Shown here piece by piece: positions 19,405 through 35,532 of a DNA stretch of 45,675 nt. The notes below the pieces were generated by a model, which was given only the letters and a program-made list of their open reading frames with translations, was not told where the DNA came from and made no database searches. Location: positions 1 to 45,675 of the forward strand of contig JAKVAX010000027.1 of assembly GCA_022447625.1 (NCBI GenBank). Direction: 5' to 3'. This DNA is from Flavobacteriales bacterium. GTDB taxonomy: Bacteria > Bacteroidota > Bacteroidia > Flavobacteriales_D > Sanyastnellaceae. The position numbers were made by a program, and so were the translations under genes. The first letter of the stretch is position 1. Every line of letters begins with the position of its first letter.

Positions 19405-19684
19405 CAGCGTCCTCGTCTTCTTCGGTGTCCTCTTCGGTTTCCTGGGCCTTCTTCTCAGCAGCCTTCGCTTTGCGCTCAGCAGCCTTAGCAGCCTTCGCCG
19501 CCGCTTTTTCAGCCTTCTCGAACTCGTCAGCTTGCTCGGTCAACCAAGTAGAAAGGTCACGAAGACCGGCAATTCCCAAGGCAAAGCCGTTGGATACTGT
19601 CACAACGAAGCGTCGTGCAGGGTTCGGATTAGCGGAACGAATAGAGAGGTAGTCCCGACCACCCGGTGTACTAAAGTTTTTCAT
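19391..19684 (-). CDS. 97-residue Ala/Lys/Glu-rich protein, unknown
   Basis: Begins MKNFSTPGGRDYLSIRSANP after AAGGACAACCC. Residues 1-50 look globular (ARRFVVTVSNGFALGIAGL). Residues 50-80 are an Ala/Lys/Glu helix likely to form a coiled coil or bind nucleic acid, and the last 15 residues are acidic. It is the first gene after the terminator that follows the RNA polymerase gene, the position of T7 early-middle genes. Family not recognised. Confidence 0.65.
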   Translation of the reverse strand: MKNFSTPGGRDYLSIRSANPNPARRFVVTVSNGFALGIAGLRDLSTWLTEQADEFEKAEKAAAKAAKAAERKAKAAEKKAQETEEDTEEDEDADAAS

Positions 19685-19783: not shown

Positions 19784-22270
19784 TTATGCGAAAAAGTACT
19801 GACTATCCAGCACTTTATCGAGGTTCAGGCTTCCCTTCGGTGGGATCGGGGGAAGCTCGGTGTCGTCCGGCAGTTTAGCTTTAACCTCTTCAGCGAAAGC
19901 CTCAAGAACATTGCACTCAGAGTACATGTCCAGGAAGGTCTCACGTAGAGCGGCAGCCAAGGCCGGAGCGTCAGAGGCGTGGCAGGCGTAGCTGTCATGC
20001 ACCATCGCGAGGTGACCAGTGTTACCCGTGGCTTCACGGAAGGCCTCTACTGTCAGCAGCATGTGTGCCGCGTCGAGAGAGTGAACGAAGTTAGGCGCTA
20101 CGGCGTTCTTCATCTTCTTCTTACGAAGCTTACCGTCTTGCTCGGCCATCTCCAGTGGGATGTTGACCTTCAAGCGCTGGCCCATGCAGGCCACGAAGAC
20201 CTGTCTGGTTTTAGCTTCACGATACTCCTGCATCACAGGGAAGCCTACAGGCGTCGTCCACTCAACAGTCTTAGCGTGGTCTACAGCGATACCAGCGACC
20301 TCTTGAAGCCACCCCATGGCATCCTTGGCAGCAACCACGACGTTACCAACAGCACCCCACACGAGCATCGCAAGATACCGTGCGGCTTCTGCGGAGTTCT
20401 CGAAGGGAGACTCGCCCGATGCCTCAAGTGGAGCAAGAGTGTCCTGCTTGATCTGGTCGATGAACGTGGTCTTGTTCGCACCATACGGTAGCGTCATGAC
20501 CGGGCGCTTCACCACCTTACGCTTCATGAGAGGAAGCCAATCGCGAGCGAGCTTCTCCCCTCTTTCGACTTCGGTCTTGAGCATACGCACCACCTCGTCG
20601 AGGACCTCTGTGTAGATGTCCTGAGGACGATCTTCGACGGTGAGGTTAGTTGCTCGACCACCAATAGGATCTCGAAGCATCGCTGAGAAGTGCTGCAAGC
20701 CATTGCATGAGCCATCCATAGCGACTGGGAGGTGTGACAACCACTCGTCCCCGTGCTTCGCGTAGCCAGCCCATTCCATGCACGAGGCGAGGAACTGGAA
20801 AGGCTCGTCGGCATCCATCCAGAACGAGCGATCGCTACCCAGTGGATTGTCACCGATGGCAACCAAGCGCTCCATGTTCTCATCGACCCAGGACACGCGG
20901 TCACCCAGCGGCTCCTTGTCGTTGCCGAAGCAGTTGGCCGTGTGGATAGCCAACCAGCGCCGCCCTTCGTCCGTCAGCGGTTTACCGTTGGCGAACTGTA
21001 GGAGACCCTTAGACAAGTCGTTGCCTTGTGGGTGGAGGAATGATGGGTAGTCATACACCCGACCACGGAAGTCCAGGTACTTAGGGAAGTAGATCGTTGG
21101 TTCGTCCTCTAGCTCCGTGGCAACCATGAGGGTCTTCTCGGTCGCTAGGATCTTACCTTTGATCTTGGCGTTGCGTGTGTGAACAGCACCCTTAGCTTTC
21201 GCATACTCACGACGTGCGTCTTCATTCGTGTCGATGTCGTGTGGCTTAGCTGGGAACGGCTCAAGCTCTGCCGGAGGGAGACCAGCGCGGCTGATGTTAC
21301 CCTCGCGGAGGTGACGAACAACCTTCAGGATGTCTTCATGCACCCGGAAAGGAACCGACTGGAGATAGTTCATTGGTGTGAACAGTTTCGGGGCGTCGAA
21401 CTGGTTGAGAGAGCAATCCCAATCCTTACCGACCGCGCGGTTGCTGATCATCCGACCGAACTTACCAGTACGCCAGTACCCTCCGTTTCCGTCATCCGTC
21501 CAGGGGGCTGGGGGGATCAGAGTCGGGAGTAAGTAGGGACGCATCTCGGATACGAGTTCGTTCGTCTTTGTGCAGGCACCGAAGGTCAGCTCGGATAACG
21601 AGTACTCTTTGACTGAGCGCTTGTTGCGCCGGAGGGTGTACGTGTCGAGGATGCCAAGGCGAACCATTGCCTCACACACGAAGATTCCGAGGCGGACCTT
21701 CTCGGTGGTTGTGAGGGGGTGTTGGATGTTCTCTCGATCCACAGCAGCATTGGTCAGCTCTTTCTGCAATTGCTGGAGCGAAGAGCTACGCTTTGCGACG
21801 TTCTTGATGATGCCGTTGTATAGGGAAGCGTTCTCGCCCTTCAGTTGGCGGGCCAACCACTCAGCTTCTATGTGGTTGCCGACACGGAATGCCATCTTCT
21901 GACTGGTCACTCGATTTGACGACAGACTGCACATGTCCAAGACGGACTTGAGAGCCAGCGCTGAGAGATCCTTCGCGGGGATGAGTTGCAGGCTCCTAAG
22001 TTCAGGGGGCTTGCGTTTCACCCGGCCACTTTCGAGGCGAGCGATTTCGTCCAGAACCAGCTCAGTCAGGGACATGGTCATCTTCGAGATCAACGCTCGG
22101 CCACCTGGGACGTTCGATGCAGATCCTCGGTTCTTCTCTCGTTCGACGTTGCGTTGGAACCGCTCGACCCCGCGAGCAATCATGTTGTCTTCATGGTCAA
22201 GCTCACGGTCCATCTGTTCGTCCGTGATGTCACCGTAAGCGAGCATAAGGTTGTAATTCGTGTCACGCAT
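19784..22270 (-). CDS. phage single-subunit RNA polymerase (T7 gp1-like)
   Basis: An 828-residue DNA-dependent RNA polymerase that transcribes middle and late genes. Catalytic residues are visible: D519 (AMDGSCNGLQHFSAMLRD, motif A), K588 and Y596 (VVKRPVMTLPYGANK, motif B), and H758-D759 (MVHDS, motif C). YLDFRGRVYDYPSFLHP near 398-414 and the C-terminal GSLNLDKVLDSQYFFA match T7, including the terminal Phe-Ala. The specificity loop region, about residues 675-715, differs from T7, consistent with a different promoter. The start at 22270 has a GGAG 11 bases upstream. The longer in-frame start at 22348 lies in the leader. Confidence 0.97.
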   Translation of the reverse strand: MRDTNYNLMLAYGDITDEQMDRELDHEDNMIARGVERFQRNVEREKNRGSASNVPGGRALISKMTMSLTELVLDEIARLESGRVKRKPPELRSLQLIPAKDLSALALKSVLDMCSLSSNRVTSQKMAFRVGNHIEAEWLARQLKGENASLYNGIIKNVAKRSSSLQQLQKELTNAAVDRENIQHPLTTTEKVRLGIFVCEAMVRLGILDTYTLRRNKRSVKEYSLSELTFGACTKTNELVSEMRPYLLPTLIPPAPWTDDGNGGYWRTGKFGRMISNRAVGKDWDCSLNQFDAPKLFTPMNYLQSVPFRVHEDILKVVRHLREGNISRAGLPPAELEPFPAKPHDIDTNEDARREYAKAKGAVHTRNAKIKGKILATEKTLMVATELEDEPTIYFPKYLDFRGRVYDYPSFLHPQGNDLSKGLLQFANGKPLTDEGRRWLAIHTANCFGNDKEPLGDRVSWVDENMERLVAIGDNPLGSDRSFWMDADEPFQFLASCMEWAGYAKHGDEWLSHLPVAMDGSCNGLQHFSAMLRDPIGGRATNLTVEDRPQDIYTEVLDEVVRMLKTEVERGEKLARDWLPLMKRKVVKRPVMTLPYGANKTTFIDQIKQDTLAPLEASGESPFENSAEAARYLAMLVWGAVGNVVVAAKDAMGWLQEVAGIAVDHAKTVEWTTPVGFPVMQEYREAKTRQVFVACMGQRLKVNIPLEMAEQDGKLRKKKMKNAVAPNFVHSLDAAHMLLTVEAFREATGNTGHLAMVHDSYACHASDAPALAAALRETFLDMYSECNVLEAFAEEVKAKLPDDTELPPIPPKGSLNLDKVLDSQYFFA

Positions 22271-22468
22271 TGTGTCACTTTCTCCGATGTATGTGAAATT
22301 AGTTACAGGTAGCTTCTGGCGCGATATGTGTACCACCCCCGTGAGCACTACAGCCTCAGAAGGTGGGTCACGGAATTACAAGCTAGGTAGCTCTATCAGC
22401 GATTTAGATTTTAAGTCCGACGGCATAAAAATAAATTCCTTTTTATTCAGAGGCTTGAGGTATTTCTT

Positions 22469-22528
22469 GGGTCACGTTCAGGTCACGTGGGTCACGGTTT
22501 GGGTCACGTGGGTCACGCTTGGGTCACG
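22469..22528. repeat. iteron-like GGTCACG array next to tRNA/attP candidate
   Basis: Six copies of GGTCACG start at 22470, 22481, 22490, 22502, 22511 and 22522. Spacing is 11, 9, 12, 9 and 11 bases, near one helical turn and symmetrical about the centre. All but the second are GGGTCACG. A seventh GGGTCACG lies at 22365-22372. The array sits in the leader between the tRNA and the RNA polymerase gene. It could bind integrase arm domains, an excision factor or a repressor. Confidence 0.75.
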
Positions 22529-23746: not shown

Positions 23747-24127
23747 CTACTCGCTTATGTGTGAACTAATTCGTCTTAGGAGCGAGCTTCCCTTATTCGT
23801 TATATGAACCCGAACCATTCTCAAGTCAACAGGGTCCGGGCGTCTTTCTAGGAGACCCATAGCTTTGCGGCCTCCCTTAGCGCGGGCTTCACCAACCTTC
23901 TGTGTGCCTTTGCGCCGGTCTGACATTGCCAGGACGGTTCGTGACATAGAGGGCCTATGAATCCCGATAGCTTCAGCAATATCAGCAACGTTAGGCCCTT
24001 CCCCGTGTGTGGCCTCATGATGTGCCACGTACGCCAGCACCGCTAGGTAGCTCGCAGGGAAGTCTGCCTCGATTGCTCGAAGCTCGTTTGCTATGCTCTC
24101 GATTGCTCGAAGTTGTTTGGTTTTCAT
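23747..24127 (-). CDS. MarR-like winged-helix regulator
   Basis: A 126-residue protein starting MKTKQLRAIESIANELR; a second ATG immediately upstream (24130) is also possible after GGAGGGAC. Residues about 28-60 give a helical region (FPASYLAVLAYVAHHEATHG), followed by an HTH (VADIAEAIGIHRPSMSRTVL) and a wing with the MarR-type end D-x-R-M-V-R-V-H-I-T-N-K-G. It lies directly upstream of the integrase in the same orientation, separated by 25 bases, so it may control integrase or lysogeny genes. A candidate operator lies upstream at 24157-24179. Confidence 0.75.
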   Translation of the reverse strand: MKTKQLRAIESIANELRAIEADFPASYLAVLAYVAHHEATHGEGPNVADIAEAIGIHRPSMSRTVLAMSDRRKGTQKVGEARAKGGRKAMGLLERRPDPVDLRMVRVHITNKGSSLLRRISSHISE

Positions 24128-32740: not shown

Positions 32741-35302
32741 TTAGAAGGGTGCTGGGGTTCCAGTCTTGAAGATTGCGATCTCGTCGATGTAGGCCCAGTT
32801 GTTCCAGTCCGCAGAGATAGCTAAGCGGACCTTGTCCTGGGTCGGAGTGAAGGTCACTTCGGTATCGCCAACGTTCGCAGCAGCTCCAGAGATAGTAGCG
32901 TAGACGCTGGCAAGAGCGATGTCGTAGACACGCCAAACAGCGCCGTTGCTGGTGAGAGGAATGCGGGTCTTGAGCGTGTACTCAACACCAGGATCGACGT
33001 CGATCTCCACGTACTGACCCCCAGTTTGGCCTGAGCTGCTACCTGCGTAGAAGCTAGCAGATCCGGCAGGCGTCCCCGGTCCAAGCGTGTTCCAGGTCAT
33101 CCCCTGGCCGAACCAGTAGGTGTAACCCGGATCAGGAGTATCGAAGCCATATGAGTACGCGATGTCAGGACCAGGAGGCGGAGGCGGAACCATCCGGCTG
33201 ATCTTGAGATCCTCAATGGTCACTGAAGATCCGGTATTGGATTGCAACACAAGACGAACGGCAGACGATCCTGGAGTGATCACGGCACCGAAGTAGCCTG
33301 TGATGTCAGAGCTTTGCCAGATCTCAGGAGATGCTGGGCTGGCGGAGCCAGGGTCAGTGTTCCCGTCGATCCACCGCAGGCCGTTGTAAGAGCCTGTGCT
33401 GGCGGTAACACGTCCGGTCACCAATAGAGGATCACCGGGTGTTACTGGGATCAGATCACTGTGAGCGAATAGAGCAACGCCAGTCTGACCTGAGAGAGTC
33501 ATGTCGTTCGCTGTAGGAACGAAGTCACCAGACCCGGTAGCGCCGAACATGGTGGCTCTCGCCGTCCAGTTCGCGTAGTCGTTCTGACCTGCGTAGATCT
33601 CTTCACGGTAGATGTCGCGAGCTTCCATAGCGTGAGCTTCAGCGGCTAGGAGAGTTGCCTCGTCATCCGGGAAGTGCGCTAGGTAGCCCACCTGCCCCAG
33701 GAAGTTATCCGTATCGACGCCAGTTTCCGAATGAAGGATACCGAGGTCTCCTCCAATACCCGAGAGGTTTAGCCCGGTGAAGCTGACAACGTGCCAGCGG
33801 TCATCCGTGAGAAGCCTGCGAAGCATATCACGAGTGATCTGAGGATACTCAACGCCGTCAATTCGAAGGCCGTCGAATCCACCAAACCCGTTCTCCGTGA
33901 TGTAGGACTGGCTAGTGTTGGCGAAGCCTGCATAACGAACGGAAGGGTTCGATCTGTCCGCGAGAATCCTGAAGCGGTCGTCGGACGTCTTCAAGGCAAT
34001 CACGAAGGTATGAGCTGTGGACGCTCGCATCTCAGCAGAGTCAGGAATCCAGTACCCTTCATCCTCAGGCGTTCCTTCGTAGTACGGAGGTGTTCCGTAA
34101 GGGTAGCCGTTAGCGTACTCGAAGGTGGTGTGATAGAAAGGCTCGTACGTTCCGGTAACCTGCATAAGGGGGTGTTTGGACGCCAGCGCTTCCGCGTTCA
34201 GACTAGCAAACGAGTTGCCAGCTTCCGTCCACTGCCTCCAGCTTAGGTCCGGTCTGTCGAAGAACGCTTTGTTGATAAACCCGGCTCTGGCTCCGCCACT
34301 AGGGGTCAGGTTGTTGGTCGTATAGGTCGATACGGAGTAACCTTCCATGATCGGGTAGTAACCAGCGAAGTTACCCGCCAGCGCTTGATCGTGGATGTAC
34401 TGCCACTCAGGGATGTCATGGCGAGGCATCTGGCAGTAGCCGTCAGCAGCGACTTGGTCGATCATGTAACGGAGCATCGTGCGCTCTGCTTCAGTCGGCA
34501 TGTAAGGCAGGACGATCAAACCGTAGAGGTCGCCGTCAGCCTTACTCGATCCTGAGAACAACGTACCGCCAACACGGATGGTTTCGATGTTGTAACTCGC
34601 TGGGTAGGTCCGAGCGTTACGCTCAGGCGATCTACCGTTCAGGGTGATGCCCCAAAGAGATCGCGTATGGAACGACTCCATGATTGTGATCTTGTCATCG
34701 CGGGTCTGGCTCTCGGTTTCAATGAACGCGTTACCACGCTGGACACGCCATCTATCTCCGGTTCCGCTTCGGAAGATCATTCGAACTGCGTCGGTAGCGG
34801 ACCCCGATTGAACACCAACACGCCCAGCGTCGAGAAGAGTTTGGTCGCTGATGATGTCGGAAGCGCTCTCTACTCGGTAGACTGCAATCGCGTAGATGTC
34901 GTCACCCGTGAAAGGGAACGCAGCGTCATAGATGGCGTCTCCTGCGAGGAATAGACCATCACGGTCCTCGATAAGGTTTCCATCGACCTTCCCGTTACCG
35001 CTGGTGCGCTCAAGGGTGAAGCCGTTTCCAGAGCGGTCCTTGTTCGACACAATGGAACTGCCACGGACAAGGTTGTTGTCTCCTGTGAGACCTGCACCGC
35101 TGTAAGAATATTCGCCACCGAAGGTATGGAACATGCCACCCTTGGATGCGACGAAAGCCTCAAGCTCGGAAGCGAGGCTATCACCGGAAGGACCTGAACC
35201 ACCTGTGCCACCACCGGGATTGAGGATAGGCCCCGCTCCCGCCACCAGGACGGCCATTTGCCCCCTGATGGCTGATGTAATTAGTAGGTGTCTCTTGTGC
35301 AT
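32741..35302 (-). CDS. large spike/fibre protein with carbohydrate-binding-like domains
   Basis: An 853-residue virion protein. The ATG at 35302 shares its A with the spike-base stop; a second ATG at 35257 (MAVLVAGAGPILNPGGG) is an alternative start. After a Gly/Ser-rich linker (about 28-42), residues 45-280 resemble a concanavalin-like sandwich (YAIAVYRVESASDI, VGVQSG). The middle is Tyr/Trp-rich. Residues 580-700 and 720-850 look like two beta-sandwich carbohydrate-binding modules separated by a Pro/Gly linker (PPPPPGPD). No catalytic residues are recognised. The partner spike-base gene suggests an adhesin for surface polysaccharide. Confidence 0.7.
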   Translation of the reverse strand: MHKRHLLITSAIRGQMAVLVAGAGPILNPGGGTGGSGPSGDSLASELEAFVASKGGMFHTFGGEYSYSGAGLTGDNNLVRGSSIVSNKDRSGNGFTLERTSGNGKVDGNLIEDRDGLFLAGDAIYDAAFPFTGDDIYAIAVYRVESASDIISDQTLLDAGRVGVQSGSATDAVRMIFRSGTGDRWRVQRGNAFIETESQTRDDKITIMESFHTRSLWGITLNGRSPERNARTYPASYNIETIRVGGTLFSGSSKADGDLYGLIVLPYMPTEAERTMLRYMIDQVAADGYCQMPRHDIPEWQYIHDQALAGNFAGYYPIMEGYSVSTYTTNNLTPSGGARAGFINKAFFDRPDLSWRQWTEAGNSFASLNAEALASKHPLMQVTGTYEPFYHTTFEYANGYPYGTPPYYEGTPEDEGYWIPDSAEMRASTAHTFVIALKTSDDRFRILADRSNPSVRYAGFANTSQSYITENGFGGFDGLRIDGVEYPQITRDMLRRLLTDDRWHVVSFTGLNLSGIGGDLGILHSETGVDTDNFLGQVGYLAHFPDDEATLLAAEAHAMEARDIYREEIYAGQNDYANWTARATMFGATGSGDFVPTANDMTLSGQTGVALFAHSDLIPVTPGDPLLVTGRVTASTGSYNGLRWIDGNTDPGSASPASPEIWQSSDITGYFGAVITPGSSAVRLVLQSNTGSSVTIEDLKISRMVPPPPPGPDIAYSYGFDTPDPGYTYWFGQGMTWNTLGPGTPAGSASFYAGSSSGQTGGQYVEIDVDPGVEYTLKTRIPLTSNGAVWRVYDIALASVYATISGAAANVGDTEVTFTPTQDKVRLAISADWNNWAYIDEIAIFKTGTPAPF

Positions 35303-35532
35303 TAGCTAAGGCCTTTGATGCCTGCAGCGGAAGTGCCTGTGGCTAGGACTTTGACGGCCACGATTGCGTACTGAACACCCGGCTGACACGCAGGGAGAGT
35401 GTTGACGTCGCCAGTAGGTGTTTCCACGGCCACGTCGCCAGCGGCAGAGACCATGATGAACTGCGTTTGAGGGATCTCGGCGTTGTCGTCTGGGGTGATG
35501 TCGAAGATGTGTTGAGGGAATGGTGCGGACAT
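35302..35532 (-). CDS. spike base protein (gene-transfer-agent type)
   Basis: A 76-residue beta-rich protein whose C-terminal half matches the pattern of the RCAP_rcc01079-type spike base proteins of gene transfer agents and alphaproteobacterial phages: a DDNAEIP start region, then VSAAGDVAVETPTGDV, and the closing VKVLATGTSAAGIKGL. Such proteins hold a spike on the head or tail. AGGAGACTTAA precedes the start. It overlaps the large spike gene (TAATG), so the two are made together. The family assignment is from memory of the pattern and should be confirmed. Confidence 0.7.
   Translation of the reverse strand: MSAPFPQHIFDITPDDNAEIPQTQFIMVSAAGDVAVETPTGDVNTLPACQPGVQYAIVAVKVLATGTSAAGIKGLS

Follow-up and report, generated by a model that had tools for sequence, protein, structure and literature searches.

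The GGTCACG array beside the integrase gene of this phage is very probably the integrase-side arm of its attachment site, attP, whose 12-bp core would copy the anticodon loop of the host tRNA-Leu(UAA) and whose phage-borne tRNA would replace the split host gene. The evidence, read from sequence, consists of: (i) the array itself, (ii) the match of the core to the host tRNA gene, (iii) agreement in isotype between core and phage tRNA, (iv) two-sided sites at conserved offsets and (v) split tRNA-Leu genes in related prophages.

The window (the whole stretch of 45,675 nucleotides analysed) is contig C20 in a draft genome of 3.9 Mb. Its terminal repeat of 77 bp makes it read as a circle of 45,598 bp, and by its sequence it is the contig of a circular, temperate T7-like phage. 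Its genes specify a T7-like RNA polymerase (RNAP), a tyrosine integrase (int), MarR-like and XRE-like proteins and a T7-type terminase, with profile matches to phrog_414 (E 6.8e-238) and PF00940 for the RNAP and to PF00589 for the integrase. The T7-like RNAP gene with int upstream in a single direction places it with the Autographiviridae, and named relatives share this order; these are temperate T7-like phages, e.g., LUZ100, HTVC119P and Rhizobium phages, in which int lies upstream of the RNAP gene and is mostly adjacent to it. An RNA polymerase scan of GTDB contigs yielded 143 relatives, of which 80 were kept and 68 of those examined. With the window integrase as sole query there was no confirmed match in the GTDB contigs and one short match in IMG/VR, and in the related genomes (98 of 150 matching, its own included) just weak recombinase matches were found beyond the phage itself.

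A word search of the window placed six copies of GGTCACG, all on the plus strand, at 22470, 22481, 22490, 22502, 22511 and 22522, and a seventh on the same strand at 22366. These are the six copies plus one of the original prediction, whose coordinates agree to within one base; its 22469 and 22365 are starts of the 8-mer GGGTCACG, and in array copy 2 an A replaces the first G. Its spacings of 11, 9, 12, 9 and 11 hold as start-to-start steps (mean 10.4 bp) but not as the gaps they were called, the gaps between heptamers being 4, 2, 5, 2 and 4. Because int, the phage tRNA gene and the RNAP gene lie on the minus strand, the coding-strand form of the repeat, read in the direction from int to RNAP, is CGTGACC. 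The heptamer GGTCACG alone is mildly enriched (14 copies in the window against a shuffle mean of 8.4; 6 of 100 shuffles reach 14), and its clustering amounts to 6 per 60 bp, against at most 3 for any heptamer in 60 dinucleotide shuffles. The symmetry of the array derives in part from an internal 16-bp exact repeat with copies 21 bp apart. A helical turn of 10.4 bp, the best among five periods tried, fits the steps with a Rayleigh R of 0.94 for the six sites and 0.93 when three RNAP-side sites are added. Two of the latter, at 22278 and 22266, are GTGAC words around the RNAP start codon that the original prediction had not listed. Measured from the core, the window sites lie at -112, -101, -92, -80, -71, -60, +44, +137 and +149, with a further GTGAC at +182 (Table 1). 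Elsewhere in the window there is no GTGAC run longer than two; the next heptamer cluster after the array is CAGCCTT at 19459, with four copies in 60 bp.

Table 1 Coordinates of the proposed attP and neighbouring genes in the window.
Feature	Position	Strand	Remarks
T7-like RNA polymerase	19784..22270	-	Proposed ATG 22270-22268 between two distal GTGAC words
GTGAC pair (22278-22274, 22266-22262)	22262..22278	-	Proposed distal P' arm pair, +137/+149; straddles RNAP start codon 22270-22268
Seventh copy	22366..22372	-	Proposed first P' arm site on RNAP side; at +44, as in L193
Proposed att core GGACTTAAAATC	22407..22418	-	12-bp identity to host tRNA-Leu(UAA) anticodon stem-loop
Six direct repeats, coding-strand CGTGACC(C)	22470..22528	-	Proposed integrase-side (P) arm of attP, 60-112 bp off core
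Intact phage tRNA-Leu(UAA)	22542..22628	-	Proposed replacement for host gene, which integration would split
Tyrosine integrase, 350 aa	22669..23721	-	Predicted N-terminal three strands + helix (residues 3-45), then core-binding and catalytic domains
MarR-like winged-helix protein adjoining int	23747..24127	-	Rival binder; possible repressor or excision factor

The proposed core, likewise absent from the original prediction, lies between the six-copy array and the copies at 22366 and 22278/22266. When the int–RNAP region, with the phage tRNA masked, was compared with 32 distinct host tRNAs, the longest word in common was 12 bp, in the anticodon loop of tRNA-Leu(UAA), and the runner-up was 9 bp. 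A 12-bp match arose in 3 of 400 first-order Markov sequences compared with tRNA-Leu(UAA) and in 16 of 400 random sequences compared with any host tRNA. The phage tRNA gene itself was considered as attP and rejected: the tRNA-Leu(UAA) genes of phage and host are unlike over most of their length, and a separate core is present. The original prediction had treated the tRNA as a neighbouring attachment feature. The core appears to be distinct from it, a 12-bp copy of the anticodon loop, and the tRNA appears to be a replacement gene. Among the tRNAs found in the host draft genome, tRNA-Leu(UAA) occurs as a single copy, in addition to the phage copy. The host gene is intact and the phage contig circular, and thus no integration is seen here. 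A 12-bp core would be too short to rebuild the tRNA at the junction.

In the mechanism that we propose, the N-terminal domain of the tyrosine integrase would bind the CGTGACC(C) words, of which one side of the core has six in a row, spaced by one helical turn, and the other side three; the remaining integrase domains would act on the core that copies the host anticodon loop. Recombination at the core would split the only tRNA-Leu(UAA) gene of the host without rebuilding it, and the intact phage tRNA-Leu(UAA), located between int and the array, would take its place (tRNA-dependent lysogeny). We infer binding by the integrase, integration of this phage in this host and a need for the phage tRNA. 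The integrase is similar to lambda Int in its core-binding and catalytic domains: it has a profile match to lambda Int (E 6.8e-13), and its structural model aligns with residues 75-356 of lambda Int with a Z score of 17.1 and an rmsd of 5.5 over 261 residues, an alignment dominated by residues 64-350 that barely covers the N-terminal domain. The predicted N-terminus has the order strand-strand-strand-helix (E3-6, E9-16, E19-25, H29-45; model pTM 0.55, 10 sequences). An arm-binding domain is expected to have three strands followed by a helix.

The original prediction named, among the findings that would count against it, a lack of conservation in relatives having the same integrase; no such lack was seen. 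The closest integrases, those of L193, L168 and L169, are 46-55% identical to that of the window, and GTGAC-type direct repeats lie between int and RNAP in all three. At k=6, none of 300 shuffles reaches the repeat count of the window, L193 or Mesorhizobium phage L186; the count in L168 is hardly above shuffles (137 of 300 at k=6, 9 of 300 at k=7) and that in L169 is not above them. In L193 the tRNA-Leu has six sites on its integrase side and three toward RNAP, whereas the six sites of the window lie on the RNAP side of the tRNA. The offsets in L193 are -180 (inside int), -158, -146, -139, -126, -115, -106, +44, +135 and +147, and on the RNAP side +44, +137 and +149 in the window thus compare with +44, +135 and +147 in L193. 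With sites and core removed, the RNAP-side stretches of the two are 26% identical over 118 positions, which is chance level.

The same strand preference extends to the wider family. In 24 int–RNAP regions (7,963 bp), the coding strand carries 49 GTGAC words and the opposite strand 9, against a background in the same loci of 1.14 and 1.00 per kb. Counted at 21 attP sites, the coding and other strands carry 38 and 1 at -180 to -60, 21 and 5 at +120 to +180, and 15 and 21 elsewhere. GTGAC clusters are found in 13 of the 21 sites, two-sided in 11 and one-sided in L192 and G151, and are lacking in eight (L074, L171, L198, L075, G152, G155, G156 and G158), among which L171 seems to use TGGCACA instead. 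In the pelagiphage-type L073 and L189, pairs at about -88/-76 and +117/+130 lie inside the ends of int and RNAP. Twelve loci without a phage tRNA-Leu (L168, L170, L076, L187, L188, L190, L191, L196 and L199-L202) enter the count of 24 regions but not that of 21 attP sites, and L097/L121 enter neither. The loci are not independent: over the match, the integrases of G151 and L192 are 100% identical, those of G157 and L197 81%, and those of G153 and L186 55%. Helical phasing, strong in the window at 10.4 bp, is only fair in L193 (at 10.5) and is weak for L186, G150 and G153; we do not claim it for the family as a whole. In the window, repeated short sites occupy both sides of the crossover core, six on one and three on the other, an arrangement of the arm type. 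Taken together, the flanking of the core, the orientation of the sites, their conserved offsets in a relative and the family-wide pattern argue for the arm-type integrase sites that had been one of the readings first put forward.

The literal three-copy pattern was also searched in IMG/VR regardless of genes, and all 91 stretches obtained were checked for an integrase and a T7-like RNAP. Two of them, L097 and L121, carry a related integrase together with a T7-like RNAP and are one phage, identical over 1,450 bp; L130 has a weak integrase match only, and the other 88 have neither. Regular steps of 6, 9, 11 or 12, like those of coding tandem repeats, are seen in many of the 91. In L097/L121, CGTGACC stands at -147, -136, -125, +117 and +128 around the anticodon loop of a tRNA-Leu(TAA) of which the 5' half is present: an array of three with steps of 11 begins directly after the int match, and a pair on the RNAP side also has a step of 11. 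No whole tRNA was found at this locus, which suggests that the phage may rebuild the tRNA rather than replace it.

An intact tRNA-Leu lies near int in 12 loci, and in every one of them its isotype agrees with that of the core. The core is CTTAAA in 7 of 7 tRNA-Leu(TAA) loci, none of which contains GATTTAGGTT (in L075 the core is on the other strand, like its tRNA); in the tRNA-Leu(TAG) loci it is GATTTAGGTT in 5 of 5, none of which contains CTTAAA. Arithmetically, the chance of a perfect 7/5 split is 1 in 792, a figure that is optimistic because the loci are related. Shorter forms of either core do stray: TTTAGGT, lacking the GA, is present in 3 of the 7 TAA loci, and CTTAAA also in 3 of the 12 loci that have no phage tRNA. 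The stretch searched in this comparison was 3.3 kb for L186 and 2.8 kb for L198.

Split tRNA genes are seen in related prophages. In ten genomes a tRNA-Leu is cut at its anticodon loop and its 5' half abuts the RNAP end, with no whole tRNA there, and a related int is present in each. Joining the two host flanks restores a whole tRNA-Leu in nine of the ten prophages, with no candidate in G159. Eight of these nine have, beside int, a second, intact tRNA-Leu of matching isotype; in G153, the ninth, the tRNA-Leu(TAA) seems to be rebuilt on the integrase side. In G150 there are two joins, one at the loop of the phage tRNA itself, which gives a tRNA-Phe, and another that gives a tRNA-Leu. The joining test covered the ten loci with a lone 5' half beside RNAP and left out L269 and L272, in which the half lies further away, and the 3'-half cases L204, L207 and L262. 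Patterns for a whole tRNA-Leu gave a single copy in each of seven genomes, beside int in six (G151, G152 and G154-G157) and some 2 kb from an int gene in G159. They gave no copy in G150, G153 and G158 and two copies in the genome of the window (host and phage); these patterns are not exhaustive, having missed a host tRNA-Leu(TAG) in G000 and intact ARAGORN copies in G150, G153 and G158. Rebuilding (L287/L228, which are G153, and L097/L121, with the 5' half only) and replacing appear side by side as strategies within one phage family.

The MarR-like protein encoded beside int might instead bind the repeats as operators and repress the RNAP gene in lysogeny, a reading that we consider improbable. 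The sites do lie in the RNAP leader, two of them straddling the start codon, and a weak sigma-70-like match at 22297-22269 (9/12) overlaps the distal GTGAC pair. A MarR-like gene is found by tblastn in 24 of 32 loci, and the available text of the LUZ100 paper, citing earlier work, gives as a hypothesis that MarR sites flank the RNAP promoter (PMC10134795). However, the sites do not co-occur with the MarR-like gene as operators would: in L168/L195, one related contig, GTGAC sites are present and the stretch examined gives no MarR-like match at E 1e-3, and in the pelagiphages HTVC201P, Bylgja and HTVC021P (L199-L201) the gene is present and the coding strand lacks GTGAC between 150 bp ahead of the int stop codon and 60 bp into RNAP. 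The clusters flank the core at a kept distance and in L193 and L097 lie directly after int, and the words are direct repeats rather than palindromes, confined in runs longer than two to this part of the window. The repressor site first proposed for the array keeps its position in the RNAP leader and is weakened by the lack of co-occurrence between gene and sites, and the MarR-like protein is a less good candidate binder than the integrase.

A second alternative, which we find very unlikely, is that the repeats are Xis/RDF sites, with a winged-helix protein bound head-to-tail along one-turn direct repeats and steering the integrase to excision. RDF sites usually lie on one arm, but here the same word stands on both sides of the core, and the sites of L168/L195 occur with no MarR-like match in the stretch examined. 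The MarR-like protein beside int is of the predicted winged-helix type. The winged-helix regulator BldC, which binds direct repeats of 9 bp, forms filaments in which each molecule makes up one turn, and this model has also been proposed for the RDF RdfS; in the available text of the same source, however, RdfS had no consensus motif (PMC11963761). That the array is a functionless product of chance or of decaying tandem duplication is scarcely credible, for although the 16-bp exact repeat forms part of it, the shuffle control, the offsets shared with a relative and the recurrence of the word around the core in a phage of unrelated sequence, found blind, all stand against this.

The coupling of integration to polymerase shut-off put forward in the original prediction is possible, since the distal GTGAC pair straddles the RNAP start codon. 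Integration itself may be part of lytic shut-off, a suggestion that we make only tentatively and with more doubt than belief. The core lies between the MarR-like and int genes and the RNAP gene, so integration would part the polymerase gene from the phage promoters upstream of int and leave it behind a truncated host tRNA-Leu gene. In addition, the distal arm pair straddles the polymerase start codon in the window and sits inside the polymerase gene, 3 and 16 bp in, in two pelagiphage-type genomes, and integrase bound to attP could therefore hinder its transcription. Of 21 core–RNAP segments from phages and prophages, 14 have a terminator-like hairpin toward RNAP, where shuffles would give 2.1, and in 11 of the 14 it lies 35-67 bp past the core. 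The opposite strand has 7, and no such hairpin was found in the window segment. Where relatives have a hairpin past the core, it would protect the polymerase from the promoter of the host tRNA.

The attP of lambda has arm sites on both sides of its core and an arm word that contains GTCAC/GTGAC, and its core is not in a tRNA gene. The putative attP of the window resembles it in the two-sided sites and may do so in this word, and differs in that the lambda core lies outside a tRNA gene. The kind of strategy is already known as tRNA-dependent lysogeny, T7-like phages included, and the docking array here is unusually long. The term was introduced for the actinobacteriophages Fionnbharth, LeBron and Gaia, whose authors, in the text available, expect it to occur more widely (PMC10865867). 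Much as proposed for the window, these phages are described there as having a tyrosine integrase, a core of ~8-17 bp in a host tRNA gene that is not rebuilt, a phage tRNA of the same isotype and putative arm-type sites flanking the core. In contrast, the window is from a T7-like phage with tRNA-Leu(UAA) and a long array in a single orientation, and its tRNA has a putative replacement role.

Further precedents come from T7-like phages and marine genomes, as far as the available text of each source goes. In Rhizobium T7-like vTRX32-1 and RHEph01, a 12-bp CAGATTTAGGTT core in tRNA-Leu and a replacement tRNA-Leu have already been reported (PMC8631192); the isotype in RHEph01 (L192) is UAG, whereas the tRNA of the window is UAA and lies between int and the array, and the words 'arm' and 'direct repeat' are absent from the text of that paper. 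The Pelagiphage/Fonsiphage group of freshwater SAR11 phages integrates in tRNA-Leu (TAG) and brings its own tRNA-Leu (PMC6811365), with another host clade and isotype than the window and no arm sites met in the text available. Integration at tRNA-Leu has been shown for a T7-like cyanophage (PMC8776855), and a 46-bp tRNA-Leu match was taken as attP in a group-G8 marine genome (PMC3861242). Since L189 is a G8 genome, its attachment site may be the tRNA itself, a point against the reading favoured here. The attP of ICEMlSym(R7A) likewise has several arm-type motifs, five IntS motifs in 283 bp, but differs in motif (TGKTGGTATC), integrase and element (PMC11963761). The tRNA-Leu beside int in LUZ100 was read by its authors as perhaps recruited by imprecise excision (PMC10134795); the TAA tRNA and CTTAAA core in its int–RNAP gap fit a replacement tRNA. 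A six-site arm, a two-sided GTGAC pattern and near-constant offsets were not met in the available text of the literature examined, and Boeckman 2022 and Zhao 2019 may describe arm sites. The result is a proposed attP map, with core, both arms and replacement tRNA, for a T7-like temperate phage. It suggests that in phages of this type repeats close to the polymerase gene can serve the integrase as arm sites instead of acting as repressor operators.

Several further observations were made along the way. In the Roseobacter phages L190, L076 and L196, three GTGAC words run across the int stop codon with steps of 11 and 8-9, and no tRNA-Leu was found there. In Nitrincola sp. A-D6 (L270:6533-6610), seven GTGAC words lie upstream of a T7-like RNAP gene, near intact tRNA-Arg, tRNA-His and tRNA-Leu genes. 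A 14-bp word of the phage tRNA, TTTAAGTCTCCTGT, recurs at window position 35532, at the start of the ORF 35302-35532, with a ribosome-binding-like AGGAGA on the minus strand, probably by chance. Finally, Mesorhizobium phage Lo5R7ANS (L186:5961-7230) has annotated BglII-like restriction enzyme and methyltransferase genes between int and tRNA-Leu.
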